This document shows, in pieces, positions 5,316 to 60,954 of a DNA stretch of 64,000 nt; positions within the stretch are counted from its first letter, which is position 1; every line of letters begins with the position of its first letter. The DNA lies in assembly GCA_015143295.1 (NCBI GenBank), contig CM026562.1:868001-932000 (forward strand), read 5' to 3'. Source of the DNA: Tetracentron sinense (Eukaryota; Streptophyta; Magnoliopsida; Trochodendrales; Trochodendraceae). Both the position numbers and the translations under genes were made by a program. The notes under the pieces were generated by a model, which worked only from the letters and a program-made list of their open reading frames with translations, had not been told where the DNA came from and made no database searches.

Positions 5316-6330
5316 CAAGGTATTAAACTTCGGTTTTGGTATAAACTTCAGTCACTAAGGAAGTTGACACATTCGAGGAAGTTTAAAGAAGTCCAAGAAA
5401 GTTATGTAAAAATTAAAGAAGTCTAGGAAACTTTAAGAAATATTGAAAATTTAATATTAAACTTTAGAGATTCAATATTTAAGTATAATGCACATCTAGA
5501 ATTCATTATATTACTGATGCAATCATGTAATATCCAATTGTTAGAATCATATTAAGTGACATGCGTTGTCTGCTTGTCTAGTGGCATCTAGATATGTAAT
5601 ATGTAAGGTCATTTTATTCTCTTTATTTCTTCAATGATTGTATAAGGTAATTATTTTAGAAACCTGAAAAACTTATGAATGAATATTAAAGTTGATAAAT
5701 AATTTGAATTTAATTTAGTTTTTAAACCTATTTCAATCTGCAATTGATGAGCTCAAGGATTTTACAGAACTGAATCAATATGTCAAGAGGAGATGAGTTT
5801 TTAAATAATTTTTAATTTATGAAATACTATAAGAAAATTATTTAATTATTTAATATTATTGAAAAGCCTTGAAGGACATAATATACTAATAATAAGATTA
5901 TTAGAATAATAAATTTTAATTTTATAACAAGGTTAATGTTAACTACACTTTAATGATAAAATTATAATTTATAATAAGGTTAATGCTAGCAACTCTTTCA
6001 AAGCTTATTATAATTATAATAAGGTTAATGCTAGGGACATATGTCTTTCCTTATGAAGAAAGTAAGTTCAAAGCGAGTGGAATTAGCATTACCCTTTTAA
6101 GTTAAAACATAAAAGCCCTTTAATTTATAGACTTTTTATGTACTCTTCAGTTAACTTCTACTGAAGTTTTGTATTTTCCCAACACTTTTTTTCTATTTCA
6201 GTCGAAGTTTGCAGAAGTTTACTAGGAAGTCCAGTATTTTTAAAATACAAGTGTATTTTGCTTCGGACACCACGGAAGTTGACTCAATTCGGTCAATTTC
6301 GACGGAATTGAGTCGATTTTTAACACCATG
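5316..6330. mobile_element. hAT-like non-autonomous element (8-bp TSD GGCAGAAG)
   Basis: The ends are CAAGGTATTAAACTTCGG on the left and, read inward from the right, CATGGTGTTAAAAATCGAC. Exact 8-bp duplications GGCAGAAG flank them (5308-5315 and 6331-6338). Repeated GAAGTTNAC/ACTTCNG-type words crowd both subterminal regions. The AT-rich interior repeats AATAAGGTTAATGCTAG twice. There is no transposase frame. The 8-bp duplication and the CA..G terminus are hAT hallmarks. Confidence 0.8.
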
Positions 6331-6477
6331 GGCAGAAGTGGTCGCTTGGCTGACCTTATAAGGCAGTAAGGCAATATGAATTGAGAGGAGAAAATTGGAA
6401 CTTAAGGATAAGATTTCTAATTCCGGTGTTTGGACACCCCCCAAGTCTTTTATATTCCAATTCATGTGAGAATTGAA

Positions 6478-6901
6478 AAGGATTCAATTCCAAGATTTTG
6501 TGGGAGTAGCGTGGGTTGTCCCCTCCTCTTTTCGTAATCTCCTTGACTGTTGGCAGCGGGAAAGAAGAGCGGGAGTATGGAAGGAGATCTGGGGAGCCCT
6601 TCCTGAGGCTATTTATTGGGTGCTCTGGAAAGAGAGAAACCGTAGAGTTTTTGAAGATATCTCGTCTACAGTGCCCAGGTTGTGTGCTCGAATTCGATTG
6701 GCAAGTCTTGGAGTGGGTTGGATTATATAGTTCTAGGGAGGAAATCGAGGACATTCTGTATTAGTCATTGTAGTAGTCGGGGGGGGGGGGGGGAGGTTTA
6801 AGGTAATGTAGATGGCCGGGGTCGTGTTTACTTGCTTGTAAACTCAATGGTCTTTTGTATTCTTCTTTTTGTTTAATAAAATGAGATATTGATCGAAAAA
6901 A
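6478..6901 (+). mobile_element. 5'-truncated LINE, 3' end with RT-associated zinc-finger region
   Basis: A + frame (about 6478-6730) encodes a segment containing IYWVLWKERNRRVFED, the signature of the C-terminal zf-RVT region of plant L1-type LINE ORF2. A 15-base G run follows (6779-6793), then a 3' UTR ending in a short A-rich tail (6894-6901). The 11-mer CAATTCATGTG occurs before (6458-6468) and after (6948-6958) the fragment. It could be a target duplication, but the right copy lies about 47 bp beyond the tail, so this is unsure. Confidence 0.75.
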
Positions 6902-7380
6902 ATAGATTTTGTTGGATTTACAATATCCTACTAGAAGGTGGATGTTGCAATTCATGTGTGCATGGGAATTGATCTTTTGGCAATTTCACTCTCTCTTTCT
7001 CGAGCTTCTTAGATTATTTTATCTTTTAGTTTTTTAAATGATATTTTTATTTCCAATTGCTTGAAATAAATTTTTATTTTTTAAGACTTTTCATAAATAA
7101 AATTTAAATGTATTTTAATTTAATTTATTCTTATTCATTTCTATTTAATTAAACTTAACTAAGTTGTTCAAATAACTTTAATTGGAAATATTTATTTTTA
7201 AAATTTTTCCATGAATTCTTATTTGAACAAATATTTTTATATATATTTTCAAAAAAATGTATTATTCATTTATTCTGATGATTAATGATCAAATAGTAAA
7301 TATTTTGTCATTCAAATTTATGATTGTTTCCCTTTAGACATCTATGAAACGGAGTTTTTACAATGTATACTCTATTTTTA
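6902..7380. other. AT-rich intergenic DNA
   Basis: Very AT-rich with many TTTAATTT/AAATTT words. No frame, repeat boundary or motif could be supported. Confidence 0.4.
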
Positions 7381-8371
7381 CTTTACAAGAAAAAATTGCA
7401 AGGCCGATTTTGGAGTTCAGGGAAAGGGATAGATCAAGAAGTTGTAGATATTATTGTGGGTTGGGGTTCTCAGTCAACGGATGTCGTCTGACCAGCTTGT
7501 TTTGAAGAAGTTGTGCTGGGATCTAGTGTTACGACCGAGGTTCCTCCTATTGGGGGAAAGGAAGACTCTCTTGAGACCATCCTTGTAGCGAAGCCAAAGT
7601 TCAGTGCTGAGAAGATTATCTATTCTCCAATATCAGGTACGCTTTTTCCTTTGCCCCCTTCTATCCTTCCCAGTCCTAGCAGAAACTTAAATGGGGCAAA
7701 AGCTTTGAAGGTCGGTCTTTACATTTCAAAGATCCAGGTTCTATTATGATGTCCAAATCCATTTTGATACCAAAGTCTGATATGGAACCAAGTGAGAAAC
7801 TACGATCGCTAGAAGTTGAGCCTAGTGGGAAATTTGCTACGGATTTGTGTGGACCTGTGTCTAGGTCTCCAGTTCCACTTGGGTGGCCTTAGGTTTTGGG
7901 GGAGGGGTTCTTACATGTTGATTCAAGTTATAATGTTCAAATTGTGAGCTTGGAGGAGGGAGTTTTATCGGATGATTCAAGTTTGAGTTCAAAACAAGTA
8001 TCTTAGTGGGTGTTGAAGAAAATTGAAGATTTTGGGAAGTTCTTGGATTTGTCTTTTGTAGGCCATGAGGTTGAGGTTAAGGCTTTATTTCAGAGCCTAG
8101 AAAGCCGAAATGGTATCCCGGTCGTAGGGGTAGATAAGAGGGCAAATATCTTGGGGGCAAAGGAAGTTTGATATTGAATTTTTTAAAAAAATCAAGTGGG
8201 GTGAATTATGAAGGAAAATTGAGGAAAGGGGTGAGGAGTAGTAGTAGGAAATTGAGGGGAGTAGTTAGTGTTAAGTAATGGCGCTTCATAGTGTCTCGTG
8301 GAACATTAGAGGTATGGGTCATATGCATTAAAGGCTCGCTATCGAGGACTTGATTAGAAGTAGATGGCCAT
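7381..8371 (+). pseudogene. Decayed plant LINE, left part (ORF1 region and start of endonuclease)
   Basis: The part before about 8270 looks like degenerate LINE ORF1 sequence with several stops. At 8278 a + frame opens with MALHSVSWNIRGMGH, the conserved start of the plant LINE apurinic endonuclease domain. A stop follows, then IEDLIRSRWP up to the point where the LTR retrotransposon is inserted (8372). Removing that element and one GCCAT copy restores the frame into SVLCLQETK at 16746 onward, which proves that both halves are one LINE. Confidence 0.75.
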
Positions 8372-9906
8372 TGATCGTCAGTCAATCTTAAATTATTCCT
8401 TCTTAGTAATAATTCCGTAGAATAGTACTAGTAAGGGTATCGTTCCTCTGAGGGCTGCGCTGGTTTCGTTGCTTTTTATTCAGATTAATTTTAAACTAAT
8501 AATTGAGGCAATTGAATTTTGATTTGATTAAACTAAAACAATGAATTAAACTAATTTAAATGAAATTTCTAAATTAAACTAAAAACAATTGGGTTTTTAA
8601 ATCCTTTTGGAGAGAAAATCTAGGGTTTTCAAATCCACCACTAACCTAATAACTAATCCCTATTTTAAATTTATTATAACCTCTTAAATTGTAAACATTC
8701 CAGTTAGAGTGACAGCATGTCCCCTCTCAACTGCTCAAGAAAAGTTCAAGGGATTATATCCTTAGAATATCGTATCTTCGGTTAGCACGAATGATACACA
8801 CTAATCTACGGTTGTGTAATCACTCGTCTTCCCTTAGCATAAAATATCTTCAGATTTAATCTCTCGATATTTTAAAACCATTGCATAAAACCTATGTTTA
8901 AATTCTAACGAAAATTAACACAAGTGATTTTAATTCCAATTTCATAATACCTAAGACAAGGTTGAGAATTCCATTGAAATTAAATATAATTCAAATAAAT
9001 CCGGTTGTTTGAAAACAACTCTCTCATTATGCAATCAATGTTTTACAATGCAGAGAATTAAAATAAAAACAAAATAAAGGACACAGTTACTTGGCTAGGG
9101 TTTCATCGAAATCTTAGAGTGGAAATTAGTTCATCGCGAGGGAGGAATGCAACATCTTCATGGACAAAGTTGCAGCACTTCTCTTCATGACTTCCTTGAT
9201 CTCCAGAGCTTCTCTTCTTCAGATCCAAAATTTCTACAAATTTCTCTCTGATAATGGCTACGAATTCTCCTTTTTATAGAGAAAGATAGAAAGATAGAGT
9301 CCTTCTAGAATAAGGAGTTCTAATGAGGTACAACTCTTCTTTTTCTCTCTCTAAACTCTCTTAGGGTTGAATGAGGATTAAACCATCATTTAGGAAGACA
9401 ATAATAGAGTTGGAAAGTGTTTAGAAGTACTAAAACACTATTCACGAAACACTATTTCACGGAATATTATTTCACCCTATTTACAGTTTTGCCACTGAAC
9501 TTCAAATAATTCTAGAGAGCTCAATTTTAATCGGATTGACCCGAAATTTTAAACATAGCTCCTTTAGGTCATCTAGAATCTACCCAAAAAGTTTCATAAA
9601 TTTTGGATAAAGAAAAATTACCAAACTACCCCTCTATTGATAGAAGTGCGATTTTGGCCAATCGATTTATCAGGGTAGATTTCTGCGATTTCGCTCTCTT
9701 TTCTTCTTCTTTCTTTTACTCTTCTTTTTTTCTGAGATTTTTGGAGTCTTTGAAGCTTGTAAATCTTCCATTTTATCTTCTTTTCCTCATATGAACCTGA
9801 AATAAGAATAAACAACCAAGTAGCATAAAATAATATAAATAATTACTCTAAATGATTAGCAAGTTAAGTTTGAGGTGCTTTTATGTATAACATTTAGCAC
9901 CGATCA
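8372..9906 (-). repeat. 3' LTR of the Athila-like element
   Basis: 1535 bp with ends TGATCG...CGATCA on the + strand. It differs from the other LTR at 8454, 8610, 9694, 9721, 9789, 9823 and 9874, all transitions, and there are no indels. Short open frames inside it occur in both LTRs and carry no protein signature. Confidence 0.92.
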
Positions 9907-9920
9907 CAACCCCAAACTTA
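9907..9920 (-). other. Polypurine tract of the Athila-like element
   Basis: On the minus strand this reads TAAGTTTGGGGTTG directly before the 3' LTR. This is the expected place and composition for the plus-strand DNA primer of an LTR element. Confidence 0.65.
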
Positions 9921-11439: not shown

Positions 11440-11471
<32 letters not shown>

Positions 11472-14931: not shown

Positions 14932-15187
14932 ACACCCTAAAAGAAAAACTCTATGTTTGACAGACACCAAATTAAAATAAAATATCTACTTAAAAAGTAA
15001 ATACTCACAGAACTCTCCTGCTTTCCACGATGTTGAATAATCTTTTTCAATCCCTGCAGTTTGAGCGATTTGGTACCTGAAAACACAAATATTTTCAATT
15101 AAATAAAAAGAAAAATATTTTTGAATTTTTTTTTTATGATTAATTTAAATTTAATCTTTCAAATTAACAACTAGACCGTTCCAGCAA

Positions 15188-15205
15188 TCCCCGGCAACGG
15201 CGCCA
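15188..15205 (-). other. Primer binding site (tRNA-Asp)
   Basis: The + strand reads TCCCCGGCAACGGCGCCA. This is identical to the 3' end including CCA of plant tRNA-Asp(GUC) as I know it, so the element's RNA is complementary to that tRNA. It lies 5 bp from the 5' LTR edge at 15211. It is a primer site, not a tRNA gene, because the rest of a tRNA is absent. Confidence 0.9.
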
Positions 15206-15210
15206 AAAAT

Positions 15211-18470: not shown

Positions 18471-19120
18471 TGAAATAATTATTTATCCCTAATATGTTAA
18501 TAAACAAATATATTAAGTGGATTTTATATTTATCCAAGCATATTGAACCTGACAGTTAGAGCGGAATCCAGAAATTCCAGTTTCAACAAAGAGCCGAATC
18601 CAGAAATTCCAGTTTCAACAAAAAGGTAGAATTTCAATACATAAACTTTTTAATTTATTGATATTGCAAAGTGTATGTTTTGAAATTTTTATCTTATGTT
18701 TCAAATCCTGCAATCCGAACGGACAAAGGGTTTTACTCATCGTAACAAAGTTCTTCGATTTTTTTTAAAATTCACAAATAATACATAACTTTTTCGTTGA
18801 ACAATTACTTCCCCAACTATTCATGACTTTCTGAAGAAAAGAAATCACATTTTTTCAGTAAGTTGCGAATTTTACGAATTAAACACAAATTATTCATGAC
18901 TTTTTGAAAAAAGTCCCGAATGAATATCTAATTTATAAATATGTTTGTTTATAATTCAATAATCAATAATTTTCTTTAATATTTCCACATCTTATTAGAT
19001 GTCTTACCAAAAAAAATTTCGAATTTTGCTAATTTTTTCAAAAAAAATCCTAGACGAATAATTCTCGAACTTCGGTTGGTATCATGTTACTTTCTCATTA
19101 TAATTTCTAAATTTATTTTT
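18471..19120. other. AT-rich intergenic DNA with a short tandem repeat
   Basis: A 32-bp unit of the type GAATCCAGAAATTCCAGTTT is present twice in tandem (18562-18590 and 18594-18622). TTCATGACTTT-type words recur near 18820 and 18894. No gene. Confidence 0.5.
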
Positions 19121-19895
19121 GGGCGGTGCTAGGCGCACCCCAAAATCTACTCATATACACCAATCTTAAAAAATTCTATATAAACACCGAATCAGAAGAT
19201 TAAAAGGACAAAAAAGCCCCCTTAAAGCTTAAACCTTCTACCTACTATTGTATCCCCCAAAAAAAACTTCTATCGCATGAACAAATTCCAAAGGTTCTCC
19301 GATTTAGACGATGTTAGTGATTTCTCTGCCAAAAGCTTTGCTTCTCAAATGACAATAATGTTATTAAATGGTATTGGAGTATGATTCTAAGTTAAACTTG
19401 TGATGAGGTAATTTTGAGAGTGAATTCTTCAACTGCAGTTACATGAAAGAAAAAAAAACAATCTCAAAAGAATGAGAGAGAGAGGTTTTGTTCGTCCCTT
19501 TATCTTGTTTGTTTGTTGGGATACCTCATCTGCGGTGAGAGAGATACGAGTGGTCTCTGCCAAATGATGCAAATATGGGGGAGGAAGAGCAGAGCGAGTT
19601 TATGGGGCTTTTGAACAACAAAAATTTTTGGTACCCCAAGAAAATTGTTTTCTGTATAATCTCTCTCGGTTACTCTCTCGCCGGATTTTTGAAATCTTGA
19701 CGAAAATGATGTTTTTCAACATGTTATTTCACGAAATCTAATGCAGTTTTGGCAAACCCTCAAATGACCTGCAGTAGGGACGAAGGTTGAAGAAGAGGGC
19801 TTTTTTTGTCCTTTTCATCTTCTTTTTAGTGTTTAAGTTAGAGGTTACTAAGATTGGTGTTATCAGTAAACATTGGGGTGTGCGTAGCACCACCC
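19121..19895. mobile_element. MITE with GGGYGGTG ends and 8-bp TSD
   Basis: The left end is GGGCGGTGCTAGGCGCACCC. The right end read inward is GGGTGGTGCTACGCACACCC, and similarity continues for about 45 bp to ACACCAATC. The flanks carry TTATTTTT on both sides (19113-19120 and 19896-19903). There is no transposase frame in the 775 bp. The ends resemble those of the element at 26146-26672. Confidence 0.7.
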
Positions 19896-22777
19896 TTATT
19901 TTTTTACTGTTTTCTTTTTTTCTCCGAAGTTTTCCTGACTTTGCCATTTTTTTTCCGAATTAGACCCCTACCGAATTATCACCGATTTTGTTACTATGGT
20001 TTTACTTGATTATAAAATTGTTTTCTAGTAGAAATGAAATAAAAGAGAAAAGAAGAGACCTAAAATATATGGTTTGTTTCTCTCTTTCTAATGCTGACGT
20101 GAATCCTCTGAATTTTTTTCGTTCGGTAAGACTCAAATAACAGGTGGCTGGATTGTTTGGTGAGACTCCACATAAACCTGTCTCTTTGGTTTTGCAACTA
20201 AGCTCTGCTATTCTCTTCTCCCTGTTAAACTGGTAAGCCACCTTTCCTTGCTCTGTTTCCAGACTCATTGGTTCTATTTTCATTCTCTGTGAATTTCTGG
20301 TCTCCTCCAAACTCATCCATTCTCCATCCAACTGCACACCCTATTACCCTTCTGATTACCATATAGCCTTACGTCTAGTTACTTCTTTGTAATTCCCTAA
20401 AACCTAGTTAAAGAACCCCCATTTGAAAATTGAAACCGTGGTAAGCCCTAACACTATTCATAACTTGACCCCAGAATCTCTGCGTGTCAAGTTCTCATAT
20501 CTGTTTTCATCTTTCTCTCTCTCTCGGTATTCCCTTTTTTTTAATTCTTTTTTTAGTGATAGAGTTTGATTTGGCAGTATCCCTTTTTTCTTTGAGAATT
20601 CATGGTTTGCTCTCTTCTTATTGTCTCTCAGTCTGGTTATTTTCTTTAAGTTCTCTCTTCTCTTCTTTTCTCTCAGTTACTCTCTCTTCCACTCTGATAG
20701 GCCTGGTTTTGAAGAAGCTTTTGTGTGTTACATATGCTTTATTTTCTTGTTCAAATGAATCAAATCTTTGTTTGTAATAATATTTGAATATTTTTACTTA
20801 TAAAATAACAAATAAAATTCAGTTTCAAACACTTGGTCATGCCTTGCCTTGCTTAGCTTATTGAGCCTTACTGTTAGACTTTAAAAAAAAAAAAAAATCA
20901 GTTTCAAACACTTGGTCATGTCTTGCCTAGTTTATTGAGCCCTACTGCTAGACTTCACCAGATGCTTTGACTACGCTTTACACACCATGGCTAATGCTTT
21001 CCAGGGGGAAGTTCTTTTACTCGATTTTAGTTAAATCCATGCATCCTCCAGTTTAAACAGGTCCCAGGAAGAAAAGGGAACAATGATGAAACCAGATCAA
21101 TGCTTTGCATATAAAGATAAACCACAAGATGAGAAGTGCCTAATAGTGTCATATGTTCACATTATAATACCCATTAAAAGACGATGATAGAAGACATTCC
21201 AAACTTGTTCAATGACAGCATCTCCGGAAAATCCAAACAAAATATGACAGGAGATTGACTGACAAGTTTGAGTTGCTCGTTTGAGTTGCTCCTCCTGGAG
21301 AGTCTCCATTTTTTCCGAGGTCCCTGAGAGTTTTGAAGAATTTCATCATCTGAATTTGCAGGTACCCTCTTTTTTTTTCCCCTATATAAGGACACTTTAC
21401 AGTTGAAGAGAGCTTCAGCCTTCTATACAGTAGTATATCTTCTACCTTTCTGTTCTTCATACAATTGCCACCAGTCAGGCAAATAGAGCATAGATTATGG
21501 AATATGGTGGGATCGATTTAACGTTATGTTTCCTGTTTTATTCACAATAATGGGAATGGTATACTCCATAGTTAAATGCTTATGCATGTGCAAGAAAGAG
21601 AAGATTTTGTGCGCAGGCCCTAGCTTCTGCAAATTGAATCTAAGATTTTGTTGCCCAAACCCAGTAACTAGGCCCAGGTTCAAGCTAATACTGCGCACCT
21701 GCCCTTTATATCTGTTGCAACAAAATTGTTTTCTCGTTAGGAAGTCATCTTCTTTATTAGCATGTTTATTTTCATTTGCCTTCCAAAAAAAAAAAATGTT
21801 TATTTTCATTTAACTGTGAAGACTAAAGATATATATTCCATAACTTGTGTAGTTAGAATAGTGATTTTTATCGTCTTCCCCCATTTTTCCAGCATGGATT
21901 GAATGTTTTTTGTGTGGGTTTATGTGTGTATATATATGTTTACCTCCGAAAATGGAGGTAAATTCTTCCAACAATGTGCTCAATGTTAGTTCTCTTGGTT
22001 TTCTAGCCACCAGGCTTCCGACCTCTTTAGCTCTGCAAAAAGTGTAGTTGCAACAATCAAAGAAGGGGGTGAAATCAATTTATGCTCACTAAAGGCTTCA
22101 AGTTGGAGGGATAGTATCCCTGGTACTGAAGGTGCTAGAGATTTGGAGTTGGTGGGGATGGGATGGGATGGGATGGGACTATAACACCAAACTCTTCTGG
22201 AAGGGTGTGGTATGGAGAAAGGGGTTTCATCAACTGCCATAACTAAGAACTCCGAATTCAAGTAATGAAATCATTGAATCATCAAAACTACTTTGAAATT
22301 TTGTTTTTAGTTCCTATAACGGAGTCTTTGTCAATCCATACGGCTCTAGTTCTTCCCTTTGTTCTAGTTCCAACCCATTCTAGTTGCATGCTTGAATTCA
22401 TTTGACGACGCAATTATGGTGGCAGTCCCTCTGTAGTTTTGTCCTTGAGGATGGATTCCAAGCACTGCAAATATCTGCTTATAGAACTTCAACCTGTAGG
22501 AACTGACCCTTCCATGTGTACTCACTGTTGGCCCAACACTAGTGTTTAAGAAAGCCCTTATGTTTATCACTTGAAAATTGACCTCTTACATGACAAGCTC
22601 AACTCTTAGTGTTATGATCGTTGTCCTGAATTTTGCAGAGCAGTACTTGGGACCGGGGAAATCCCCCGGTGTGGCTCCTGCTTCGTAGACATAAGCGCAA
22701 TGACGAATCACGTCAATCTATTGTGTTTTGTATGTGTTTGTTTTCTTTGTTGCTTTAATTTTTCACAATTACGTCCC
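19896..22777. other. Gene-free intergenic DNA
   Basis: A direct duplication lies at 20819-20881 and 20898-20956 (period 79, containing TTTCAAACACTTGGTCATG), separated by an A run. A GGATG run lies near 22156-22176. Several frames of 60-110 codons exist on both strands, but none shows a domain, compositional signal or splice context worth calling. Confidence 0.4.
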
Positions 22778-22991: not shown

Positions 22992-23015
22992 TAGAATGGT
23001 TTGCGTTTATTGGTA

Positions 23016-30614: not shown

Positions 30615-30670
<56 letters not shown>

Positions 30671-35906: not shown

Positions 35907-38900
35907 AGAAGGTCCAGGAAGGCGTTGATGTATTTGACAGCATATGGAACAAGGTTTTGCATAAAATTGTGTTGTCCTTTCAGTCATCTGCAATGATTCC
36001 TGAGAAATTTTGTTTCTTCCAACTTAATTTTTTTTTTGGATTCCTTGATTACTCTCATTGTTGTTGGTTTTTAGGTCTATGACACTGAAAACGCGAATCA
36101 GAAAGAGAAATTTGAGGCAGATTTGAAGAAGGAGATCAAGAAACTGCAGAGGTACAGAGATCAGATCAAGACATGGATACAGTCGAGCGAGATAAAGGAC
36201 AAGAAGGTTTGTATCCGGTCTATCTTCACCTGTTTTCATTTTCTAGCATTTGAATTTTTCAGGCTTTAGAACTTACTTGGAGGCTTGCCAACATACCATT
36301 CACAATTTCGAGAGTTAAGTACATTACATTACTTGGAAATTGTTAATACGTAGCAATTTTGATTTATTGAAGTTAGTGCACTAAGTCAAAATGCTTTGAT
36401 ATTAAGCTAATCACCGTGTCACTATTTTTTAACCAATTGAAGGCTGCACTAGACAAATATTGATGCAGATTTTGCACATTTCCACATAAGCTCCAACTTG
36501 ACGCAGCATCGCATTGTACCCCTTTCATCTTGTTGGTGCCATAACTTTCATATTGAGTATTTTTGGAGTGTCCTTGCTCTGTTATTCTGGCATTTCATAG
36601 TTGCTTGCGTAGCTAGATCTATGGCACCTGAGCCATTAGCATTCATGGTACTGGCACTATCATCCTCCATGGCGCCGGTGCCTCGAGCTCAATGGCAGTG
36701 GTGTCAGTAGTTCTGGCGGGAGTGTTTTGGGGGTTGATTAAGGACTTGTACTTTGTTGGGTAAATAAGAGGTATGTTGACTTAGGTGGACGCCATCACCA
36801 AGGGACTGACTCTCGTTTTCCCTGACTTCGTCTAAGCACCGTCCTTGTCTGCCCATGTAGAAGATTGGGAGTACGAGGGGAGGACCCTAGCGGATAACTG
36901 GATAAGGCATATTCACTTGGAACTCTAATGTGACACATTTTTATTTATTTTTGGTAATACTAGTGTGACACATTTTGATAGTACACGTTTCCACACAAAG
37001 TAAATTGTAGCGGACTATCTCTGGGTTTAAACATATCGATGCATGACACATGTCCTATTAATTATTTTGGTGATAATGGCAAACCCGTTGGAATGTGAGT
37101 ATAGTTCACTTCTTGGAAGTCTATAAAAGAGGACCCTTACCCCTTCACTTGGACTAACATACCACCATGTCTTATTTTAGGCCACATTAGGGTTTTGATC
37201 ATTTTTTTCTCATCCTTTTTTAGTGGCTCTTCCATCTCCCATGGGAACCATTTCCATTTTTCTTCCAATTCTCTTCTCCATTTCCGATGAGACATAGCGC
37301 CGCATGATGGCTGGCCATCGGTTTAGGCATGCGATTTAGATGATCTCCACTCTCCACCCATAGAAAAACGAAATCTACATTTTAATGACTCCACTGGGGA
37401 ATTGTCCAAACAATGTCGTCACCGGATTTCTTACCAACATTATCATGTAATTTTCCTTGTTGACGGTTTAGGATGCTCCCGGAAATCTCTAGTTTCTCTA
37501 TCAGGAAGTGCTGTAGAGGGTTGGCTGTCACTGTATTTTTATTTGTTTACCTTTTGCGGGTTGCATCTGTCCACGTTGGTCTGTCCAATTCTTTAGGAAA
37601 TTAGGGTTTAAAGATTTCAAACTTCCTGATCCAAGGTCACTGAATCAAAGCATGAACCCTAGATTGAATATGATTATGTTAAATGTTTTTCTTCAAGTTT
37701 TATAAGAAAAAAAAAAGTCAGCCTTTTCTATTCCCTTGGGTTTCTGGTTCGTGTATCCTTGAAACAGTCCGTTTGTTTTCCTTTGTGTTTCTTCAGTAGT
37801 AGGATTTCTATGCCATCCTTGATGGGGGGATAAGGTCTCATGGGCCCATGACAACCTTGGTTCTTAAGAGTCGAGACAAAAGTGAGAAATTGAATGAGTT
37901 TTATACAGTCAATGCAAGTTGGATCTTTGCTTGACTGCGGAGATGGAGAATAAAACCCTAACAAACAGAGCTAGAGAATGGTTTGTCGGTGTTCCACCAT
38001 ATTCAAATCAATCTATTGGATCGAACGATCAATCTGTGCCATGTCTCGGTATTCTCATCAATCTAACACATGGTATATGAGTTGTTAGACAACGAGGAGT
38101 GATGATGCTGAAGGGTATGTTTGTCTTAGAGCCATTGGCAATTTCTATTACTGCCAAGTGCCAAAGAATGAAAAGATGAAACAAATAATATGAGGTTTGA
38201 CTTTTGAGGTAGGAAGAGTGGTTGGCAAAGAAATGTAGTGGCAGAGATTGAAGATAGCAAGTCTCATGGGTGGAGTTTTGGTGTTAATTGATTTGCGTCA
38301 ACCAAAATAGCCTTAAGACACATGTAGTTCAGACCATGAAAATTGCAGCCTTTAGGCATGAGGGGTTTTAAAATGATTTTTGCTTATATGTGCCAAATAG
38401 GTTGGTGGATGGCAGAGGGGTGTGCTTAAGGAAGAGTGCGCTAAAGAGGTGGCAGCAGAGCTGTGTGCCTAATAAGTGTACTATGCCAAGGATGTGGGTG
38501 CCACAGGGATGCGTCTAAGTGCATCCCATAGGGCTATTATACGCCATATTTGATAGAGATTGTCTGTTCAAGATGACATTTCTGACATTCTAAGGTGTGA
38601 CGCCAACTTCCAATATGTGTATGTACAGTGTTTGCTACTTTGTACCAGTGCAAAGTTTTTTGTGATTGCTTAATGTTACGTGCATCCCCAACACTTGCCT
38701 GTTGCGTGGCGCCAACATTTAGTCAATAACACTTAGTCGCTTTGTTAACATTGATGCGTATGCTATGAACCTATGAGTCACGACATGTAATTCAACAACC
38801 TATTGCGTGGCGTCAACATCCAAAGCCACGCCTTAATACCTCAAGCCGCCTTGCCTACATGGAATATCAATATGTGTCACATCGTACATCATGGTTGTTA

Positions 38901-41900
38901 AATCCTTGTGATTTACGATTCAAATCCTACGATTTGATTCGAATCCCAAGCAAAACGATTGAAATTGGAGGTGAAAATCTTAATTGGATAAATTTCATTT
39001 GATTTACGATTCATATTACAATTTGCGATTCAAATCGTACGATTCGAGCACGAAACCCTTTTTACGGATCAATACTTAAAAAATATTTTTTATTATTTTG
39101 ATTTTCTAAAGGTACTTTATGATTTTTAAGAACCTGTTACGAACATGCCAAAACCCCTATTTGGGTTGTCTCTGTTGCTGTGAAACGAAAAAAAAGAAAG
39201 ATGAAAGAATGAAGAAGAAAGATGATGGAGTTGGATTTTGGAAAAACTTGATAGTTTATTTTATTAGTCTTTTTAATTGTACAAGTCTTCTTTTGATACT
39301 TGATCTCATACAACATGATTATATGAGTTTACTTTTGTTGATTTATCTTTAATGATATTGGTTTTTTTTTTTTAATTTTAGGGAGATCATTTGCGTTTTT
39401 TATAGTGTTTGCAATGGAATATTCATTACTTTATTTTATCAATAAATATGAATGAAATCTTTTAGATAATAGATTATTCTATTTTTCTGATTTATTATAT
39501 AATTTTTTGTATTTTTTAAAAAATGGATTGAATTTTACGATTTACGATTTGAATCCCGATTTAAATCGAATCGGTCCTAAAACGATTTTATGATTCGATT
39601 ACGATTTAACAACCTTGTCGTACATCACTGATTGGTTTGAGCCGATGGATTTGATATCAAATATCATATCGAGCGAGCAAGTGCTCCCAACTGATGGAGA
39701 TTAACACATGTGTACGGTTTTCTTGACATACATAGTGCAGTATCAACATGCAAGATCACTTATGTCAGCTAAATGCTGCCTTACCAACCACGTAACTGGG
39801 AAAAAGACAATCAGCTGGTCGTTTTTCTTCTTCTACGAGCTCGGTGGATCAAGACACAACTCTATAGTCTAATATGGATCCTCCGAAATCGAGATTTAGA
39901 AGTCCTTCAAACAGCTTGCCTTGCAGCGAGAGAAATGACTATCATGAGCATGGAAATAAAAATCACCGAAACCGATACGAAACGGTCGATAAGTATAGGT
40001 TTTGGTAGCCCGTAGCCCCCTATACGATATTTATACTGATACGAAACGGACAATGCATATTGTTTTATTAGTTATTTATGTTTTCATTCCTTAAGTAATT
40101 GTAATTTTGTTTGTTACTTTGTCTTTGAATCGCTTCCCATGACTTATATTTGGTTCTTCTAATTCATTTGATTTTTTTATGAATTTACTTTGATTTTTTT
40201 AAAACAAGGAAAAAATTATATGTATCGTCCGAAACCGCTACCGAAACTGATACTTATAGGTTTCGGTTGGGACCGATACATCCCCCGAAACAGTATTTTT
40301 AATCCTTGATCATGAGCGTGGGTGGTGGGCACAAACCCTACCTATTGCGCCAAGAGAAGTTTGCCATGTGGATGTAGGCCATAGTGATGTATGCCAGAGC
40401 TATGGATGAATGGCAGAGGTGTGTGTCGTAATGGATGTACACCAATCGATGGAGTTCAGCCAACCACCGCACAATAATGATGCTTAGTGCACATATGGTG
40501 TACTGTCAAGATTGGTCGTTGTGTCAATCTATCACCTACATGCCTTGCGCAACACCAACATGCAAATTACGCTGTATCACCTCAAATGTCGCCTTGCTTG
40601 TATGGAGCCTTGTAATAGAATCTACCTACACATCTAGGTACGTGTCGGCCATAACATCAAACATAACGCTTTAGTGATTGATGGCGCATGTGACACTCAT
40701 AGTTTCTAAAATTGCCCGATACATATGATAAGTGATGTCCATGAACATCCATATTTTTTGTTGTATGCATGGTGATTAGATGGCATGAACCCATGGTGCC
40801 CATGTATCGGCTGCCCCAAAATCCATGTTGACAGTCATGGCATATGGTACTGAATTTTGAACTGTTCGTCATCTATGTCATATGGCGCCTATTGCTTGGT
40901 TTTAACCAATATTGAGCACCCACATAAACAACATCAAAAGAGCATGCTTGTTAGGAGTAGTATTGAATATCTGGATTGTAGGGACTTGGACAAGGTTTTG
41001 AATGTCGATATCACATGACATGTCGAGCCGTGAAAAAAAGATATATCGGGGATACGATATCGCAAGAACAATATCGCACGTGGAGGGAAAAATTGAAAAA
41101 AATAATGAAAAACATAAAAATTTTCAATACAACTTCAGGAAATGTTAAAATAGATGTTAATACACATCTGAGAATAAAAAAAAAAAAATGTATATAAGAG
41201 ATGCAGTGAGAAAGGGCCCAAAGATGTGCGTTGATGCTAACGATAATGTATGATTCACTAATATTGATGTAGCTTACACAAAAAGTTTCATTCATTTCTC
41301 AATCAAGCATTACAATTCTCAATCTAGCATAACAATTAATTAAAATACAATCAGTTTCATACATAATAGTTTATACATTAATAATGGTATCTCCAAGTAT
41401 CCAACCTCACTACTACAACCACAAGCTCACATCCACATGGAGTTACGTAGAGGGTCAAAGTCATCTCCGTCATGACTAGGCTGTCGATAGTATTGGTTCT
41501 TCACATATCATCGCATTATGGTACAATGATGTATACTTATGTATATAACGTTGATAGTCATATGGTCCAAGATGTAGCAACACTCCCATCGATGGAGTAG
41601 ATACTCTGGGTACTGATGCACAATTGTCTTTGATACTGCCACATAAGGTTGTGCACCTCCATAGTCATCCATACGGCTCATACCCGGAAACATATTCATA
41701 TGATTCTTTTGGAATTTAAATTTAGGACTATTTTAAATAGAGGGTACCCATAATATGCTTAAATGTTTTGTAAAGCTTGAATGTAATTATTTTTTTGCTA
41801 AATTGTTAGTTGACTTTTGACCCTGTAGATAAGAATATTTTTGAAGACTAAAATATGAGACTTTTTTCACCGGACATTTGGGTTTTACTAATGTTTTGAT

Positions 41901-44900
41901 ATGATAGAATTTATGAAAATTTAATATTTGAGAAATACCTTAGCATTTGAAAGTTGAATTTTGAAAAAGATGCTAAAAAGCGGCTTGAACTGGAAAGTTG
42001 GCTTTTTATTCTTTAGAAATTTGGATCAGATAATTTTTATTGAATTCAAATGGGGGTATAACTTTATTTACATATAAATATCTTAAGTAAATGGAAAACC
42101 ATTTATAGCTTAAAAACCGACATTTACTGAAACACCCCACGATATCGACGATATATCGTGCGATATTCTGTAAAATCTATATTACCCCATATAGATATGT
42201 CGGTACGCATCGAAATCGAGAAATATCGTTGATATTTCGTCGATTTTTCAAACCATGTCACTTGGGGCCTATGCTATTTGACATTAGGGTGTCAAATGCT
42301 TAGTACATTTAAATTGGAGTAGCGTTCGTGGCTCCAATAGAATGGAATATATGTTAGATGGTGCCCATGGCACAATCATATGTGTTTGATATCTCAATAG
42401 TATATAATTGTTGTATAATTTGATTAAGATTTGCATGAGCCTAGGTCTTTGGAGCCTAATTCAATGGCATCCATGATACTTGGTGCCTATAACCCATATC
42501 ACTTACTTGCCGCATGGGCTTGATGCCAAAATTGTGCATTTATTAGACTTCTTGCCATACAAATGGTATGGGCCTAGTGCTTTGGGCTTGGCTGGTTGCC
42601 CATGGGGCCTTGATGCTTAACCTAATACATTTAATAATCAATACTTGATCATGCCCATGGCCCCTATGAACGAAACGTAATGGATGGCATGCCCAAGGTG
42701 AGCAACGCACTTGGCGTCCGTCAGAAACTAAATGATGTAATGGTACTAGTTGGGCCAACACCCATATAATACTTTACATCTATACCTCACGACAATGATT
42801 CCACATGGGCTTTATATCTCAAAAGTGTTTAGTTATTATATGCTGTGATAAATATTGCACGAGCCTAGTTCTTTGGGTCTAGTCAATCACTTACGCAGTT
42901 TGATGCCCCTATGTTGAGTAGCACTCATCGCTCCAATCAACTAGATTATGTAAATTTATGTTCTTATCAGTTATCATAACTCGTTCTCTATTTTGGGTGC
43001 TGTATGAGGCGTCCTAAGCCCTATGCGTATACAGGCAACGGGTTTTCTATATATCTATACATGTACAAATGTACAATTAATAACCTTATTCGGGCATTGT
43101 TGAATCATGGGTCACCCAAGATACTCATTTATAGCTAATTGAGCATTTTTATTATTTTCTGCTATGTGATAGCTTTCTTTGATTCAATCCAAGCTGGCCA
43201 TTGTGCTGTTGTGAGCACTTCTTGCTAGCACCACGTGTCTTGCCACATCATCCTGAAGCACCATACTGCACCCTTGGTGAGCAGCATATATCTTTGTCTT
43301 GTTGGTGCCACGTGTCTTACCACGTTGTCCTGAAGTGCCACATTGCACCCTCAGTGAGCAGCATACATTGCCCTCTTGCTGGCACCGCATGCCTTGCCAT
43401 GACATCCTCGAGCGCCATACTGCACCCTCAGTGAGCAGTATACATGGCCATCTTATTGCCTCCATGTGCTTTGCCATGTACTCTTAAAGCACCCATACTG
43501 CGTTTTAGCAGTCATCTCTTCCTCACAGGTGAGTTAATGGTGCCTGATGCCATACTTGGGATGTTTTTCCCCAGACATCAACTCAAAACGCGGAACCTTG
43601 CTCTTGCCGCCTGCGAAGGCGGACCCTTGTACTGAGCGCCAAGTTTGGCTGTGACTGTGAGGATTTTTGGTGGGCTTGGCCTAGGTGATGTGATGTTTCC
43701 AATTAGTAATTGAGGTTCCACATGAGAGCACATCCACTTTGGGGGATAATAGGGCTCTCAGGTCTAGTGGCATGGAAGAGTATTGTTAGTCCTTGTGGTG
43801 CCATAATCCATTTCACACAACAACTACCCTACTTTAGGACTGTAACATAAAGATGAGGACACCAACATCCTTAGCATCCTAAATAACGATGCATCCGCGT
43901 GGTAATGAGCATTCTTCCTCATCCCGTTTGTCATTAGGCACCCATCTCACATACCCCCTTTGCATCCCTCAGGAGATTGGCTTGAGGTTGTAGTTACTAA
44001 AGCAAGCTCTATTCCATCCTAGACCTAACCCTCTTACTCCCTCATCATCTCGCTCCGACAATGACTTGGCATTGTTGATTCTCAGTCCCTCACATTTCCA
44101 CAATCACTTACATAATTCCCTTCGCAATTCGCATCCCTCGAATATTGGCCCGATATGGTAGTCTCTAAACCTAAAGTGTGCGCTACACTTGGCATAGAGG
44201 GACTAACCACCTTTAAATGGTTAATTTGTTTTGGTATGGGCTAAACACCTGAAGATGGTCAATTCGTTTTGGTATGTGTTAACCACCCCGAGAGGGTCAA
44301 ATTCGTCATTTGCTAATCACCCTGAGATGGTCAATGTTTATTCCATGGGCTTACCACCCCAAGACAGTCGATTTGTATTGTTGCGGGCTTGCGGGCCCAT
44401 CTACCCTAAGATGGTTAATTCTCTTGCGTGGGCTCATCCACCCTAAGATGGTTAATTCTCTTGTGTGGACTCATCAGCCTAAGACGGCCAATTTGCTAGC
44501 ATCTATTCTTCGTGATGAATTTGCAAATGTGTGTGTTTCATGCTAGTTTATGTTGGATGTGTTATATATCTTCGTTGATTACCTGCATTCATGATTGTGA
44601 TATCTTGTGATAGACGCCATCCGCAGGTGCCAGATAAGAGCATCATATTTGGGCGCTGCACACAATGTCACATAAACTCCACCTTGTCACGAGTAGGCAT
44701 TGCATTGTACCACTTTTGTCTTGTGGGGCCCTAACACCATATTGAGTATTTTTAGCACGTCCTTAGTTTGTTATTTTGGGCATTTCGTAGTTGCCAACGG
44801 AGCCACATCTACAGTGCCGGTGCCTTAGTCTCCATGTCAGTCTCAACCTATCAACCCGTGACATGTGTCCTCTTAATTATTTTGCTGATAGTGGCATACC

Positions 44901-47900: not shown

Positions 47901-50900
47901 ATCCTCTGGAATAGCATCAAGTGTCCCATGCCTAGGATGCTCATTTTCTGTTCCTTCCCAGCTTCTTCATCCTCTGGAATAGAATCAAGTGCCCCATGCC
48001 TAGGATGTTTCTGTCGAAGTGTTCTCGTCAGCATCAGAGGGACACCAGAGCAGCACCCGGCAACAACAACCTCAATCGACGGCAATGAAATTCCAAGCTT
48101 AGACCGGAAAAAAGGCAGACGACCCAGTTGCAATTGAGGCCACTGTATAGCAATCCATAATCCAGCCTGTCCTGTAATCATTCTCCAACCCCTGATGGTG
48201 TCATGGTGATCGAACCTGATACTGCCATCACTCCAAGGAGACTCCATCTGTTCGGACCGTTCCGGTCTTCCAGGTAACCACACAAAATCATATCTTCCCT
48301 CTCAGACATCTCAAATTCCGTAGCGCCCTGTACGCTATCGGTGCTAACATACATAACCTTCAACGACTCCTTATCCAACTGATCACAACGAAATGTGGGC
48401 GATGCGATATTAGAAACTGGTATGCAGGAGCAATTCCTGCTGTTCTTCTTCCTTGTGTTTTCTCTAAACCTCCCTTTTTTACAACTCCGCACGTGCTGCC
48501 TGACAAGTATGTATATAATAGCACTCATAAAAAAACATATCAGAAACCCTCAACTCAACTAAACCTCTCTGCCCCTCTCTTAAAGCCTTCCTATGACCAG
48601 CAACAATTTCTCTGGCAACCTTTGACCATTTTCAACGACCTTTTCCCAATTCTAGCCTGCCTTCAGTCATCTTTCACCTCTAAAAGACTCCCCAAGGAGA
48701 TGTTTTATTATTATTATTTTGTTAGAATTATCCATACCTATATATGAGGCATGGCTTGTTCTCCTCTCTTTCCCCTTCTCACTCCTTTTATTGAGGGCAA
48801 TGAGATGAAAAGCGGTAATTGTTTTAGAAAAAGTGAGATTCTTTTCCGTCTGATTGGACCAAATACAGGTCTTCCGGTAGAGATGAAAAGATAGGAAAGA
48901 AATCAAATAGGAGACACTTTTTTGATATAGGAATCAGTATCTAATGAATTCAATGGTTCCCACATAAGTGGGAGAAAGAAGGGGATGCCATCTCTCTTTT
49001 CTTTTGTCAATCGACGTTTCTTTATATCTGAATAATATGCATTACTTGGAGATCAAATCACAGCCAATTGCGATTGAACTTGGGGAGAGTTCAATCGCAC
49101 CCACAAGTCAACACGTGTCCCTGTTAACCCGTATTAGCTGTGGTTAAGGTTCACTAACCTTTAGGGTTCAACAATTTAACCTTGGTTTTTAGGAAAAAAA
49201 ATATTAACTCTTAAGGGTTAAAAATTCTTAACTAGAGTTAAAAGTTGTTTTAATAATTTTTCTAAAAACCAAGGTTAGATTATTGAACCCTAAGGGATAA
49301 TGAATCTTAGCCATAGTTAATAGGGTTAAAAGGGACACATGTTGACTTGTGGGTGCAATTGAACTCCCCCAAGTTTAATCACAGTTGGCTGTGATTCGAT
49401 CTCCATTACTTGAAGAGGCTCTTGAATTGATGTAGTTTTATGCTTCAGCTTCTTTAGATATCAAAATCAAGGTTGTTAAATCGTAAAATCGTTTTAGGAC
49501 CGATTCGATTTAAATCGGGATTCAAATCGTAAATTGTAAGATTCAATCCATTTTTTTTAAAATACAAAAAATTATTTAATAAATCAGAAAAATAGAATAA
49601 TCTATTATTCAAAAGATTTCATTCATATCTATTGATAAAATAAAGTAATGAATATTTCATTGCAAACACTATAAAAAACGCAAATGATCTCCCTAAAATG
49701 AAAAAAAAAACTAATATCATTAAAGATAAATCAACAAGAGTAAACTCATTTAATCATGTTGTATGAGATCAAGTATCAAAAACTTGAACAATTAAAAAGA
49801 CTAATAAAATAAACTATCAAGTTTTCCCAAAATCCAACTCCATCATCTTTCTCCTTTATTCTTTCATTTTTTTTTTTTTTCGTTTCACAACAACAGAGAG
49901 ACAACCCAAAAAGGGGTTTTAGCATGTTCGTAGTAGGGGTTTTCTTGTTTCTTCGCTCTTCTTAAAAACCATAAAGTACTTTTAGAAAATCAAAAGAAAA
50001 AAAAATATTTTTCAAGTATTGGTCCGTAAAAAGGGTTTCGTGTTCGAATCGTATGAATTGCACGATTTGAATCGCAAATCAAATGAAATTTACCCAATTA
50101 AGATTTTCACCTCCGATTTGAATCGTTTTTCTTGGGATTCGAATCAAATCGTAGGATTTGAATCGTAAATTACAAGGATTTAACAACCATGATCAAAATC
50201 GGAATAGTTAGTTCCTGTTTCTTGTCTCTCATCTATTTTACTCTCTAAGACTTTTATTTGAGCTAGAATATTTCTACTTCCTTGCCAATTGAATCCTAAC
50301 TATTTCATTTATGCAATTTTCTTTTAATTTTCATGCTTTTATGTGTTTTCCTGATTGTTTGCGGAACTTATTTTTGTTTTTGGTGATACAAATTCCTGTT
50401 TTCTTTTTTACATTCATATCCCACAATTTATATCTTTTTTTTTTGTGGGTAACGAAGATCAATATTTAAAGAACCAAAACAAAAGATAGTACTTTCATAT
50501 CCCACAATTTCTCTAATTCTTCCTTGATTTTATTTTGTCATTTATGTATTTCTTAGAAATATTTGAGTTGCCAACTTGCCATGATTCCTGCGCCCACTTG
50601 CCAGTGTCATGTTTTGGGGGTCAGGAAAGTTGAACCTTGAGTCCTAGGCTTTACGACATTATGCATAGAGATAACCCACTGTCTTATTTTGCCTGTGATT
50701 CTTCTTTGTAGATAACAATTAGACATTGCATTAGTATGTAAAAGGAGATAATGTACAACACTGGAAATAATGGATTCTTAATGAAAAAATAACTTTATGT
50801 TCAAAGGAAAGGGCTGAAGCAAAGACATGAGTCAAGGCCAACAAAAGAGAAAAAAGCAACCCTCTTGCTAAATAGTGTTGATGATGATTAAGTTTTTCCT

Positions 50901-53724: not shown

Positions 53725-53789
<65 letters not shown>

Positions 53790-57723: not shown

Positions 57724-58511
57724 CAGGGTTTTAAAAAGGCATGAGAGGCTTATGCCTTGAGGCGAAGCAAGGAAAACCCCTTGAGGCTCAAACATTAAAT
57801 TATTAGGTGTGTGCCTTGTAATTTATTTTATCGACAGAAAACATTAAAATTTTCTTTTTTCATTTTGTTATTAGTCTAAATTAACACTAAATTTATTATG
57901 TCTAATGCATTGAGGCTTTTTAAAACCTTGTTTTTTTTTTTTATCGGTAAATATCAAGTTTATTCATAAATCAAAAAAGGGGAAGCAACAGTTTACAGGA
58001 AGATAAACCAAAGGGAAAAACAGAAACAAAAAAGAAGAGCAAAGAAACATAAATGATAACAAGGGGAAAGTATAGGGGTTGTCCTTCTCACGACAAACCT
58101 TGTTGAGTATATTTCATTCTAATTTTTATAGTAGACATTGCAAAGATTTAGAGCCATTGTCTAACATATATAGTTTGTGATTAATTTATAATTGTTTGTT
58201 GGAAACCAAAATCAACCATATGATTGAACACTATCCATCTTTCAATATGTATATAAACAAAAAAAATAAATCTAAATTTTAGTTTTTCTTGCCTCTTAAA
58301 TTTATTTTTTTACGGCTGAACAATTTATGTGGTATTACATATGTGCACACACACACACACATATATATTTATTACCTTTAATTAATTTTTTGAATCTTTT
58401 TGCAATATTCTAATTAACTATTTATTTATTTTGTTAAAATGAAGTAACATAAGGCTTTCATGTGAGGCTTACACCTCACACATCCCCACACCTTCGTGTT
58501 TTAAAACACTG
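57724..58511. mobile_element. hAT-like element (TSD GATATAGG) with nested LINE insert
   Basis: The left end is CAGGGTTTTAAAAAGGC and the right end read inward is CAGTGTTTTAAAACACG. Exact 8-bp duplications GATATAGG flank it (57716-57723 and 58512-58519). The subterminal words are GAGGCTTA and CACCTCAC/GAGGCTT. A second inverted end, GGCTTTTTAAAACCTTG, lies inside at 57914-57930, suggesting a composite or rearranged copy. A (CA)n-(TA)n tract lies near 58346-58368. Confidence 0.82.
57933..58094 (-). mobile_element. 5'-truncated LINE insert inside the hAT-like element
   Basis: It begins with a T run on the + strand (poly(A) on minus), followed by ATCGGTAAATATCAAGTTTA, of the same kind as the LINE 3' end at 59525. 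The flanking words AAACCTTGTT (57923-57932 and 58095-58104) are identical and fit a target duplication. Confidence 0.7.
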
Positions 58512-58887
58512 GATATAGGTATATACAGCCCAAAAGAAAGCATTTCAAAGGAGATTCCATTTACTCTGTCCCTGTAGGGGAGGTCATCACTGAATCTCTT
58601 CCATTAGAATACAGCCAAACTTATCAATATCATGCCATTTCTTCCATTCGGCAAGCTTCTTGAAAGAAGGCTTCGGTATTAATACTGTTGATTCACCCCA
58701 AAAACCTTGTTTCCCTTGAGAACACAAGTTCTATGAAGCAGTAGTCCACTGATTGCCAGATTTAAAGGATAATTTTAACAGAGCGAGGATATGGTTTATT
58801 GGTTTATCATGAAGGCTGTGGAGCAGTATAGTTGAATATTTCTGGTAAGCAATAGCAAATTACTTGTAAGTTGTAAAAGCATGACTT

Positions 58888-59169
58888 GTTCTTGATTCTG
58901 GTTAGTGATAACTTTATAAGAGCTGGTTTGAATAGATTAGGTTTTAGGGTTTAGATTTAAGGAATCAGTGTCTAGGGTCTTAGAGGAAGAGAAGAGGAAG
59001 AAGGAGAATGTATTAGGGAAAGATTGGAGAGAGTAATTGTCTTTCTCCTATTCCTTTATTATATATCCTCCACTAATGGTATACTATTAGTATATAAGAG
59101 ATGCTAATAGTATACCATTGTTATAATGTATTAGACATAAAAGATATAAAATAAAGAGAGTATTCTACA
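58888..59169 (-). repeat. 3' LTR of the intron-9 copia element
   Basis: On the minus strand the LTR starts TGTAGAATACTC directly after a polypurine tract (TTGAAGGGGAG, 59170-59180) that overlaps the pol stop codon. The far end, placed at a TGT near 58888, is uncertain. The inside has a duplicated ATGGTATACTATTAG motif (59078-59120). Confidence 0.6.
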
Positions 59170-59524
59170 CTCCCCTTCAAGTTGGTTCGTAGATATCACT
59201 CATGCCTAACTTGCCAACAATGTTACGAAACTGAGAATCACTAAGACCTTTAGTTAGCACATCAGCCAACTGATCTTCAGATTTCAAGAATGGAGTACTA
59301 ATGTATACTGCCTTCAACTTTTCCTTGATAAAGTGATGATCAACCTCAATATGTATAGGTTTGTCATTCTGCACTAGGTTGTGGGCAATACTGATCGTTG
59401 CATTATTATCTCAATACAAACTTATAGGATAGTGGGAAGTCCGTTCTCACTTAGAAGCAGTCGAAGCCAAAGCAACTCACATACCCCATGTGCCATAGCT
59501 TTAAATTATGCTTCTGTACTGGAT

Positions 59525-59860
59525 TTGGATTTATTTTATTTTATCAGTAATCAAGAGAAATATATTGAAAAATAAATAAGAGGAACTACAAGCAGAACCG
59601 GGAGGTTATTGAGAAGTAACCGTCCGAGCTGAAACCAGACTACTATATGGCTACACAAAGAAACAACTAGAAAACTACTAAAAGAAAACTACATTTCTAA
59701 GAGTTGGGCTCCCAACCTTTCGCAGTCATGCGGCATATTGACAACCAATCCGAAATAGAATGTCTTATGCGCGCACATATGTGAGGAATTGAAGAAGGGA
59801 ATTCTCGAAGACTCTAGAATTCCTCTCCTTCCAAATGGCTAATGCTATAGCCCCGGGCCC
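59525..59860 (-). mobile_element. 5'-truncated LINE inserted in the copia RNase H region
   Basis: The minus strand encodes AIWKERNSRVFEN, the plant LINE zf-RVT signature, and ends in an A-rich tail (a T-rich run on + at about 59525-59545). ATGCTTCTGNNCTGGAT flanks it on both sides (59508-59524 and 59861-59877, 15 of 17 identical), and the copia RNase H reading continues across (GNLVTWRSKK to AMAHGVCELLWLR). Clear nested insertion. Confidence 0.88.
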
Positions 59861-60524
59861 ATGCTTCTGCCCTGGATCTTGCAACCACATGTTTTTTACT
59901 TCTCCATGTTACAAGGTTGCCTCTTAACTATAGTGCAATACCCTAAAGTAGATCGCTTGTTTGAAATTGAGCCAGTCCAATCTACATCAGTGTAGGCTTC
60001 AACTCTTGAGTTCTCATGACATGTATACATCACATATTTCCCAGGAGATGACTTTAAGTAGTAGAGAATTCTGTTAACTGCATCTCAATGTTAAGTGGTG
60101 GGAGCATGCAGAAACTGACTAACCCACTAAATGCATAAGCAATGTCTGGTTTGGTGAAAGATAGATAGATGAGTTCACCAACAGGTCTCTGATATCTTCC
60201 TGCATTAGGCAGACGATCCTCACTACTTTCACCGAGTTTGTGGTTTATGTCAATAGGAGTATCACTAGGTTTACAACCCATCATACTTATCTCCTCTAGA
60301 AGATCAAGTACATACCTGCGTTGAAAAATGAAAATACCTTTCTTAGACCTGACAACCTCAATCCCAAGGAAGTACTTCAACTGACCAGCAACCAAGATCC
60401 TTGATCTCAAACTCCTCTACCAACTTGCTCTTTTGTAACTTGATCTTAGTCCTATTATTGTTTGCTACTACATTATCAACCACATAAACAATCAGAAGAG
60501 TCACCTTTTGATGAGAGTTGAGAC

Positions 60525-60954
60525 CATAGTTGCAGGGAAGCTATGTACAGGGTGGGAAGCTCGCTTCCCAAGAAGCTTGTTTCCCAACCTCGCTTCCTCA
60601 GACAAACGCGCTTCCTAGGACAGACTCGGTTCCTAGGAAGCTTGCTTTCATCACGTTTCATTTAGTAGTCAAAGGGATATGATGTGTGAAGTGATGTGGT
60701 AGACCACAATCTATAACCTAGGCTGTAGACTCTAAGCAAGTATCGTCAGTTTGAAACCTAAAACACTTACTTTTCCACAAAAATCTCATGTAAGATAAAA
60801 TCAAAGGTATAACTACTCATAAATAACATAATGGGAATGTAGAGCCTATATCTCATTTCTCGCGTCTCGTTTCCGAAGGTTTTTTTTAAGTCTCACTTCC
60901 CGCTTCTCACATTAGCTTTGCTTCTCGTTTTCGCTTCTCGCTCTAGTAATTATG
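60525..60954. mobile_element. hAT-like MITE in the copia RT region (TSD GTTGAGAC)
   Basis: The ends are CATAGTTGCAGGGAAGC and, inward from the right, CATAATTACTAGAGCGAGA, with exact 8-bp duplications GTTGAGAC (60517-60524 and 60955-60962). GCTTCCY and GCTTCTCG words repeat many times near both ends. 430 bp, non-coding. Confidence 0.85.

Follow-up and report, generated by a model that had tools for sequence, protein, structure and literature searches.

Several families of non-autonomous hAT transposons lie in a 64,000-nucleotide stretch of Tetracentron sinense DNA (contig CM026562.1, positions 868,001 to 932,000; G000:C12:868001-932000 in the coordinates used here; hereafter "the window") from an assembly of 1.16 Gb in 1479 contigs. 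We consider it probable, at about 0.7, that these are ordinary hAT miniature inverted-repeat transposable elements (MITEs), cut at a common tip and recognised via family-specific repeats close to their ends, with the BED finger of the transposase probably the predicted reader of those repeats. Beyond the window, putative autonomous elements with DUF659 and BED domains carry the same kind of tip together with three different subterminal words, and MITEs matching some of them closely were found.

hAT elements in the window

The sequence-only reading of this stretch had named six intervals as bounded by an exact 8-bp target-site duplication (TSD), and all six carry it, with the bounds exactly as given: E1 (5316..6330, + strand; TSD GGCAGAAG; tips CAAGGTATTAAA / CATGGTGTTAAA), E2 (38890..39617, − strand; TSD TCGTACAT; tips CATGGTTGTTAAATC / CAAGGTTGTTAAATC), E3 (39949..40308, + strand; TSD ATCATGAG; tips CATGGAAATAAAAATC / CAAGGATTAAAAATAC), E5 (49468..50191, + strand; TSD ATCAAAAT; tips CAAGGTTGTTAAATC / CATGGTTGTTAAATC), E6 (57724..58511, + strand; TSD GATATAGG; tips CAGGGTTTTAAAA / CAGTGTTTTAAAA), and E7 (60525..60954, + strand; TSD GTTGAGAC; tips CATAGTTGC / CATAATTAC). 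They represent five families, because E2 and E5 are members of one family in opposite orientation. Two further intervals had been said to look alike. One, E4 (40991..42257, + strand; tips CAAGGTTTTGAA / CATGGTTTGAAA), is an old hAT-type element without an exact 8-bp TSD of its own, although three of nine related copies with ends read have one; the other, placed at 61745-62025, is a real element with the wrong bounds, since its ends lie at 61720..62040 (E8, + strand; tips CATAGTGAAA / CATGGTAACAAA) and its TSD agrees in 7/8 positions (GTGTCTAC/GTGTCTCC). The TSD is thus exact in 6/8 of the elements first proposed. One element of the E8 family had been overlooked, at 18738..19998 (+ strand; exact TSD GTTTTACT; tips CATCGTAACAAA / CATAGTAACAAA). 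The window elements are 360–1267 bp long and contain no open reading frame of at least 120 aa, counted stop to stop.

A scan of the window for an exact 8-bp TSD next to ends from a list of CA..G types returned six pairs, five of them with terminal inverted repeats (TIRs) agreeing in at least 9 of 14 positions; in 60 Markov resamples the mean was 0.22 pairs per resample, and none had TIR agreement of 9 or more. E7 is missing from the output because its right tip, CATAA, is outside the list of ends. The TIRs are short and imperfect and start with CANNG, the window copy of E7 having CATAA at one end. The tips read CAAGG/CATGG in E1–E5, CAGGG/CAGTG in E6, CATAG/CATAA in E7, and CATAG/CATGG in E8, and the differences in the last three mean that an end of the form CAAGG(N)TT(N)TTAAA, proposed for most of the elements, is not general.

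Inside these tips, each family has its own short word: AACTTC (GAAGTT) in E1, ATCGTA (ACGATT) in E2 and E5, CGAAAC and GTATCGG in E3, GATATCG in E4, AGGCTT/AGGCG in E6, CGCTTC in E7, and AATTCG in E8 as well as in the element at 18738-19998, which has four in its ends. The earlier proposal of a different word in each element therefore holds by family, with E2 and E5 sharing theirs. The words lie at both ends of the elements, in both orientations and with irregular spacing; short arrays are called by Tandem Repeats Finder in E7 (60556-60638) and E8 (61761-61817). When the outermost 200 bp at the element ends are counted, enrichment is seen for example for AATCGTA (8/14 of the window occurrences are within the ends of E2), CGATATC (5/7, E4) and CCGAAAC (5/6, E3), and is weakest for E6, where AGCCTC has 4/23 of its occurrences in the ends and a CA-repeat ranks higher. 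Tabulating 11 words against 18 elements or ends gives own-word counts of 7 for AACTTC in E1, 7 and 5 for ATCGTA in E2 and E5, 7 for CGAAAC in E3, 5 for GATATCG in E4, 3 for AGGCTT in E6, 5 for CGCTTC in E7, and 9 for AATTCG in E8, over a background of 0.03 to 0.28 per 300 bp; every family is dominated, nearly exclusively, by its own word, but this table is a description and not a test, because the words were picked after the elements had been seen.

Genome-wide copies and end polarity

The elements had been described as a local set; their families are in fact genome-wide. Searches with five window elements gave first-look candidates numbering 1774 for E5, 2702 for E3, 3579 for E7, 6265 for E4, and 2448 for E1, figures that leave copy number unproven, as 40 candidates were scored per query. 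Among copies with ends read, exact TSDs were found in 6/10 for E1, 5/10 for E3, 3/9 for E4, 22/31 for E5, and 5/9 for E7, the window copies being included for E1, E3, E5, and E7. These counts contain some E5 calls that are boundary errors inside the element (4/27 copies with 7 or 8 matching TSD positions have non-CA tips; L011 is among such errors), and some copies that look, by their common TSD, like one locus doubled (C852 and the window for E1; L026/L032 and L013/L016 for E5). Copies of all five searched elements thus have related ends at other sites, with 8-bp duplications of their own, and for those five the objection foreseen by the sequence-only reading, that the ends might prove unrelated across the genome, fails for this reason. 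In the duplications, T is preferred as the second base and A as the seventh (44/82 over 41 distinct exact TSDs, with 0.318 expected per site; p = 3.5e-5), and the preference remains when two miscalled TSDs are removed (42/78; p = 4.6e-5).

The two ends of an element are also distinct. Among copies with a TSD of 7 or 8 matches, one CAAGG and one CATGG tip are paired in 6/9 for E1, 6/9 for E3, 3/4 for E4, and 20/27 for E5, or 35/49 overall; CATGG/CATGG occurs in 4/49 and CAAGG/CAAGG in 0/49, the other 10 being variants or boundary errors. In the E5 copies so listed the CAAGG end continues as TTAAATCGTAA, a few having TTAGATCG or slightly different letters there; the CAAGG end of E1 continues as TATTAAA. 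The natural reading of this asymmetry is a left/right distinction kept across families, and the polarity of the ends may have a role of its own. Some matches to the E1 family stand head to tail in a tandem-like arrangement (G000:C1:34634909-34637008 and G000:C601:1256267-1257933).

The element scan that gave 18738-19998, which covered 59 records (298 kb) and was run with no shuffled control, added, in flanks fetched for other purposes, elements at L014:157-337 (word CTAGGC), L021:3207-3660 (ACTCG), and L056:188-705 (ACTCG), with a weak pair at L027. It also gave an element at L050:1992-2281, which shares end type and word with E8 and 18738-19998.

Autonomous DUF659/BED transposases

The PF04937 (DUF659) profile had 1783 first-look candidates in the genome, of which 150 were scored; six sets (A–F) were sampled for long frames and repeated scores, and the slices beside each were read. 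Element A (C13:39873820-39878288, 4469 bp) has an exact TSD, CCCCGGAC, both TIRs, with tips CAGTGTTTTAAAA and CAATGTTTTAAAA, a BED finger above the Pfam cut-off (1.1e-5), and a DUF659 domain; its word, AGGCG, is present at both ends, 11 times across the two outer 150 bp. A downstream piece of element A gave no family match. The ends of the other sets come from right-hand slices only. Set E, which combines a BED finger and DUF659 with a hAT dimerisation domain (1e-11), has the right end CATGGTTCAAAATATCGG with four copies of GTATCGG; set C ends in CAGTGTTCAAAAACTCG with nine copies of ACTCG, and sets B and F end in CAGTGTTTTAAAACCCG and CAGTGTTTTAAAACACG with nine and seven copies of the same word. 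Tip and word cluster occur together in 5/6 sets, in three word classes: AGGCG, ACTCG, and GTATCGG.

The strict tip CANNGTT(N1-2)AAAA is found 8 times in 6,809 bases of downstream slices, compared with 0.32 expected from its rate in flanks (11 in 117,600 bases, both strands), although three of the eight (E at 410, C at 173, and D at 485) were not counted as ends because they have no more than a single copy of the three words. The position of such ends relative to the gene was compared as well. With a 141-bp query from the right end of A, 7/40 matches are correctly oriented and follow a listed DUF659 domain at a distance of 1.8–2.2 kb on its downstream side, and with the end of set E 11/40 do so at 2.6–2.9 kb, all among the first 13 matches; by our own arithmetic, chance would give about 0.03 pairs. 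The position check covered 9/40, 13/40, and 19/150 rows by script and the others by eye, the latter adding no pair. The remaining end matches (96–97% identity for set E) have no DUF659 domain nearby among the 150/1783 candidates scored, and because of that sampling they may be non-autonomous or merely unlisted. Ends of set E are 96–98% alike over 141 bp in 40/40 scored matches (e.g., G000:C8:16924173, C19:28289038, C18:7925172, and C12:19924082), and this near-identity, together with many open DUF659 frames, suggests recent activity. Further CATGGTTYAAAA tips were seen in the flanks of L018 and L029 and in L121 at 410; that of L018 is nearly identical to the set E end, and the others have related words.

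MITE ends were compared with six autonomous ends by local alignment with the tips removed, using 60 block shuffles for each comparison. Three MITEs beyond the window match strongly: the right end of L021 to B (z 84), the tip of L018 to E (z 80), and the right end of L056 to C (z 32). The proposal that each family could be matched to an autonomous hAT element with the same words thus holds for MITEs beyond the window, is plausible for E6, the ends of which are modestly like those of element A, and is unproven for the other window families.

A second hAT group was considered as a source of the tips. Of 1709 PF05699 candidates, 150 were scored, and 18 longer loci were read, six of which have ends, four with an exact TSD and two with 7/8; all are TAGGG-type (one end reads TAGAG), and these loci were rejected as a source of the CANNGTT tips on that ground.

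Weighing the explanations

On the reading that we favour, the tip at the extreme end (CANNGT..., as a rule with a T-rich stretch and then an AAA stretch after it) would be the cleavage end, recognisable across families, and the short repeats clustered within the outer 100–200 bp would serve as a family-specific recognition code; a BED finger would read the word, while a common catalytic core would cut at the tip. DUF659 elements have this kind of tip in combination with three words, and that supports a lineage in which the tip recurs while the subterminal code changes. The sequence-only reading had gone further, to one lineage in which the tips stay fixed as the words change, and this can be kept only approximately, because positions 3–4 of the tip change between families and the L021 and L056 MITEs have different tips with ACTCG in common. 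It is conceivable, and we hold it tentatively, that a single DUF659/BED hAT lineage radiated within a single genome into many families by changing the pair of BED finger and subterminal word, with the cleavage tip and the end polarity (in four families, a CAAGG end opposite a CATGG end) retained. We infer the place of E1, E2/E5, E3, E4, E7, and E8 in such a lineage, because no autonomous partner was found for them among the ends compared; BED-word binding, and the mobilisation of these families by this transposase lineage, are likewise presumptive.

Several results weigh against the favoured reading. Besides the shared word of L021 and L056, the tips at positions 3–4 include CAAGG, CATGG, CAGTG, CAATG, and CATAG. 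Element A is the only DUF659 set bounded at both ends; set D has one tip-like match with none of AGGCG, ACTCG, or GTATCGG beside it; and the BED finger of set E, at 7.1e-4, is just under the Pfam cut-off. The ends of E6 align to those of element A with z values of 9, 4, 3, and 0. Against the six autonomous ends no convincing partner was found for E1, E2/E5, E3, E4, E7, or E8: one E1 end reaches z 6 with B without a common word, and every other window end outside E6 has z of at most 3. A pairing of E3 with set E through their common word GTATCGG was rejected on its alignment (z at most 1), and no single autonomous partner for all window families emerged from the same comparisons.

Alternatively, the window families could come from a number of unrelated hAT clades and resemble one another at the tip only through a general hAT consensus (CANNG) plus A/T-rich sequence. 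The lack of a partner in six of seven window families would fit such an origin, as would the CATAG tips of E7 and E8, which are unlike CAWGG; the PF05699 group of this genome, however, has TAGGG-type ends in 6/18 loci read, compared with CANNGTT..AAAA in 5/6 DUF659 sets, and we regard an origin in separate clades as rather unlikely. A view of the words as low-order slippage arrays, not recognition sites, could draw on the Tandem Repeats Finder arrays in E7 and E8, but it accords poorly with words that are irregularly spaced and occupy either end of an element in both orientations; element A, too, has its word at each end, and repeats of this kind are bound by the BED fingers of Hermes (PMC10368747); we judge it very improbable. 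Chance occurrence of duplications and ends in A/T-rich DNA, for which the imperfect TSD or ends of E4 and E8 might speak, is already contradicted by the Markov resampling and by related copies with their own TSDs, and has next to no probability left.

Other features of the window

Within E6 lies a retroposon-like insert (57933..58094, − strand), in which a T run, read on the + strand, leads into about 150 bp, and the 10-bp word AAACCTTGTT flanks it at 57923 and 58095 (57923-58104 overall). A tip-like CAAGGTTTTAAAA inside E6 (57918-57930, − strand) was rejected as an element end: the 8 bases just beyond it mismatch the E6 TSD, and it coincides with the target duplication of this insert. Two pieces of decayed Copia-type (RVT_2) coding sequence, both on the − strand, enclose E7 (60054-61381); scanned separately, the flanks of E7 match positions 96–124 and 162–200 of the RVT_2 model, in order, both below the Pfam cut-off. 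As judged from these matches, E7 sits within a decayed Copia-type gene, which is not a precise empty site. At 12247-14985 (− strand), a 912-aa open frame looks, by eye, like the gag/protease region of a retrotransposon. An Rfam scan of the window gave zero matches.

Comparison with known systems

The elements are ordinary in kind and of a well-known type. They are of interest because a single genome combines several word/transposase pairs with one type of tip, and because four families have CAAGG/CATGG polarity; together they may show a recognition code changing while the cutting tip is kept. Should the word change with the BED finger under a constant tip, families could evade cross-mobilisation with catalysis unchanged, and each autonomous family would be a natural BED/word pair, making the genome a ready set for reading the BED recognition code. 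With three word classes accompanied by transposase genes (AGGCG, ACTCG, and GTATCGG), the DNA choice of BED fingers is therefore testable in a single genome. Literature searches for a CAAGGTT tip with hAT superfamily, 8-bp, and inverted repeat, and for DUF659 with hAT, transposase, and MITE, returned nothing, which is not proof of absence from print.

The PF05699 elements of the same genome, which we take to be Ac-type, share the 8-bp TSD and the hAT dimerisation domain and differ in having TAGGG-type ends where the present elements have CANNGTT..AAA. The window elements also resemble the plant hAT MITEs BniHAT-1 and BniHAT-2, which are non-coding, 666–673 bp long, present in hundreds of intact copies, and have an 8-bp TSD and short TIRs (PMC7385995); the likeness rests on features other than the tip letters, and subterminal words are not discussed in the accessible part of that source. 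Several hAT elements, namely Tol2, Tag1, and Ac, are described as requiring 100–200 bp of end sequence (PMC10368747). A close parallel is Hermes, the hAT element of the house fly, which has an 8-bp TSD with the preference nTnnnnAn, imperfect TIRs that are unlike at the two ends (two swapped base pairs), and subterminal repeats bound by BED fingers (PMC10368747). Its words, AAGT/AAGC, and its host are different, and the contact between BED finger and word is solved in Hermes and predicted here. By this analogy, the best reading of the Tetracentron elements is a Hermes-like division of labour, in which a common core would cut the tip and a family-specific BED finger would find the word.

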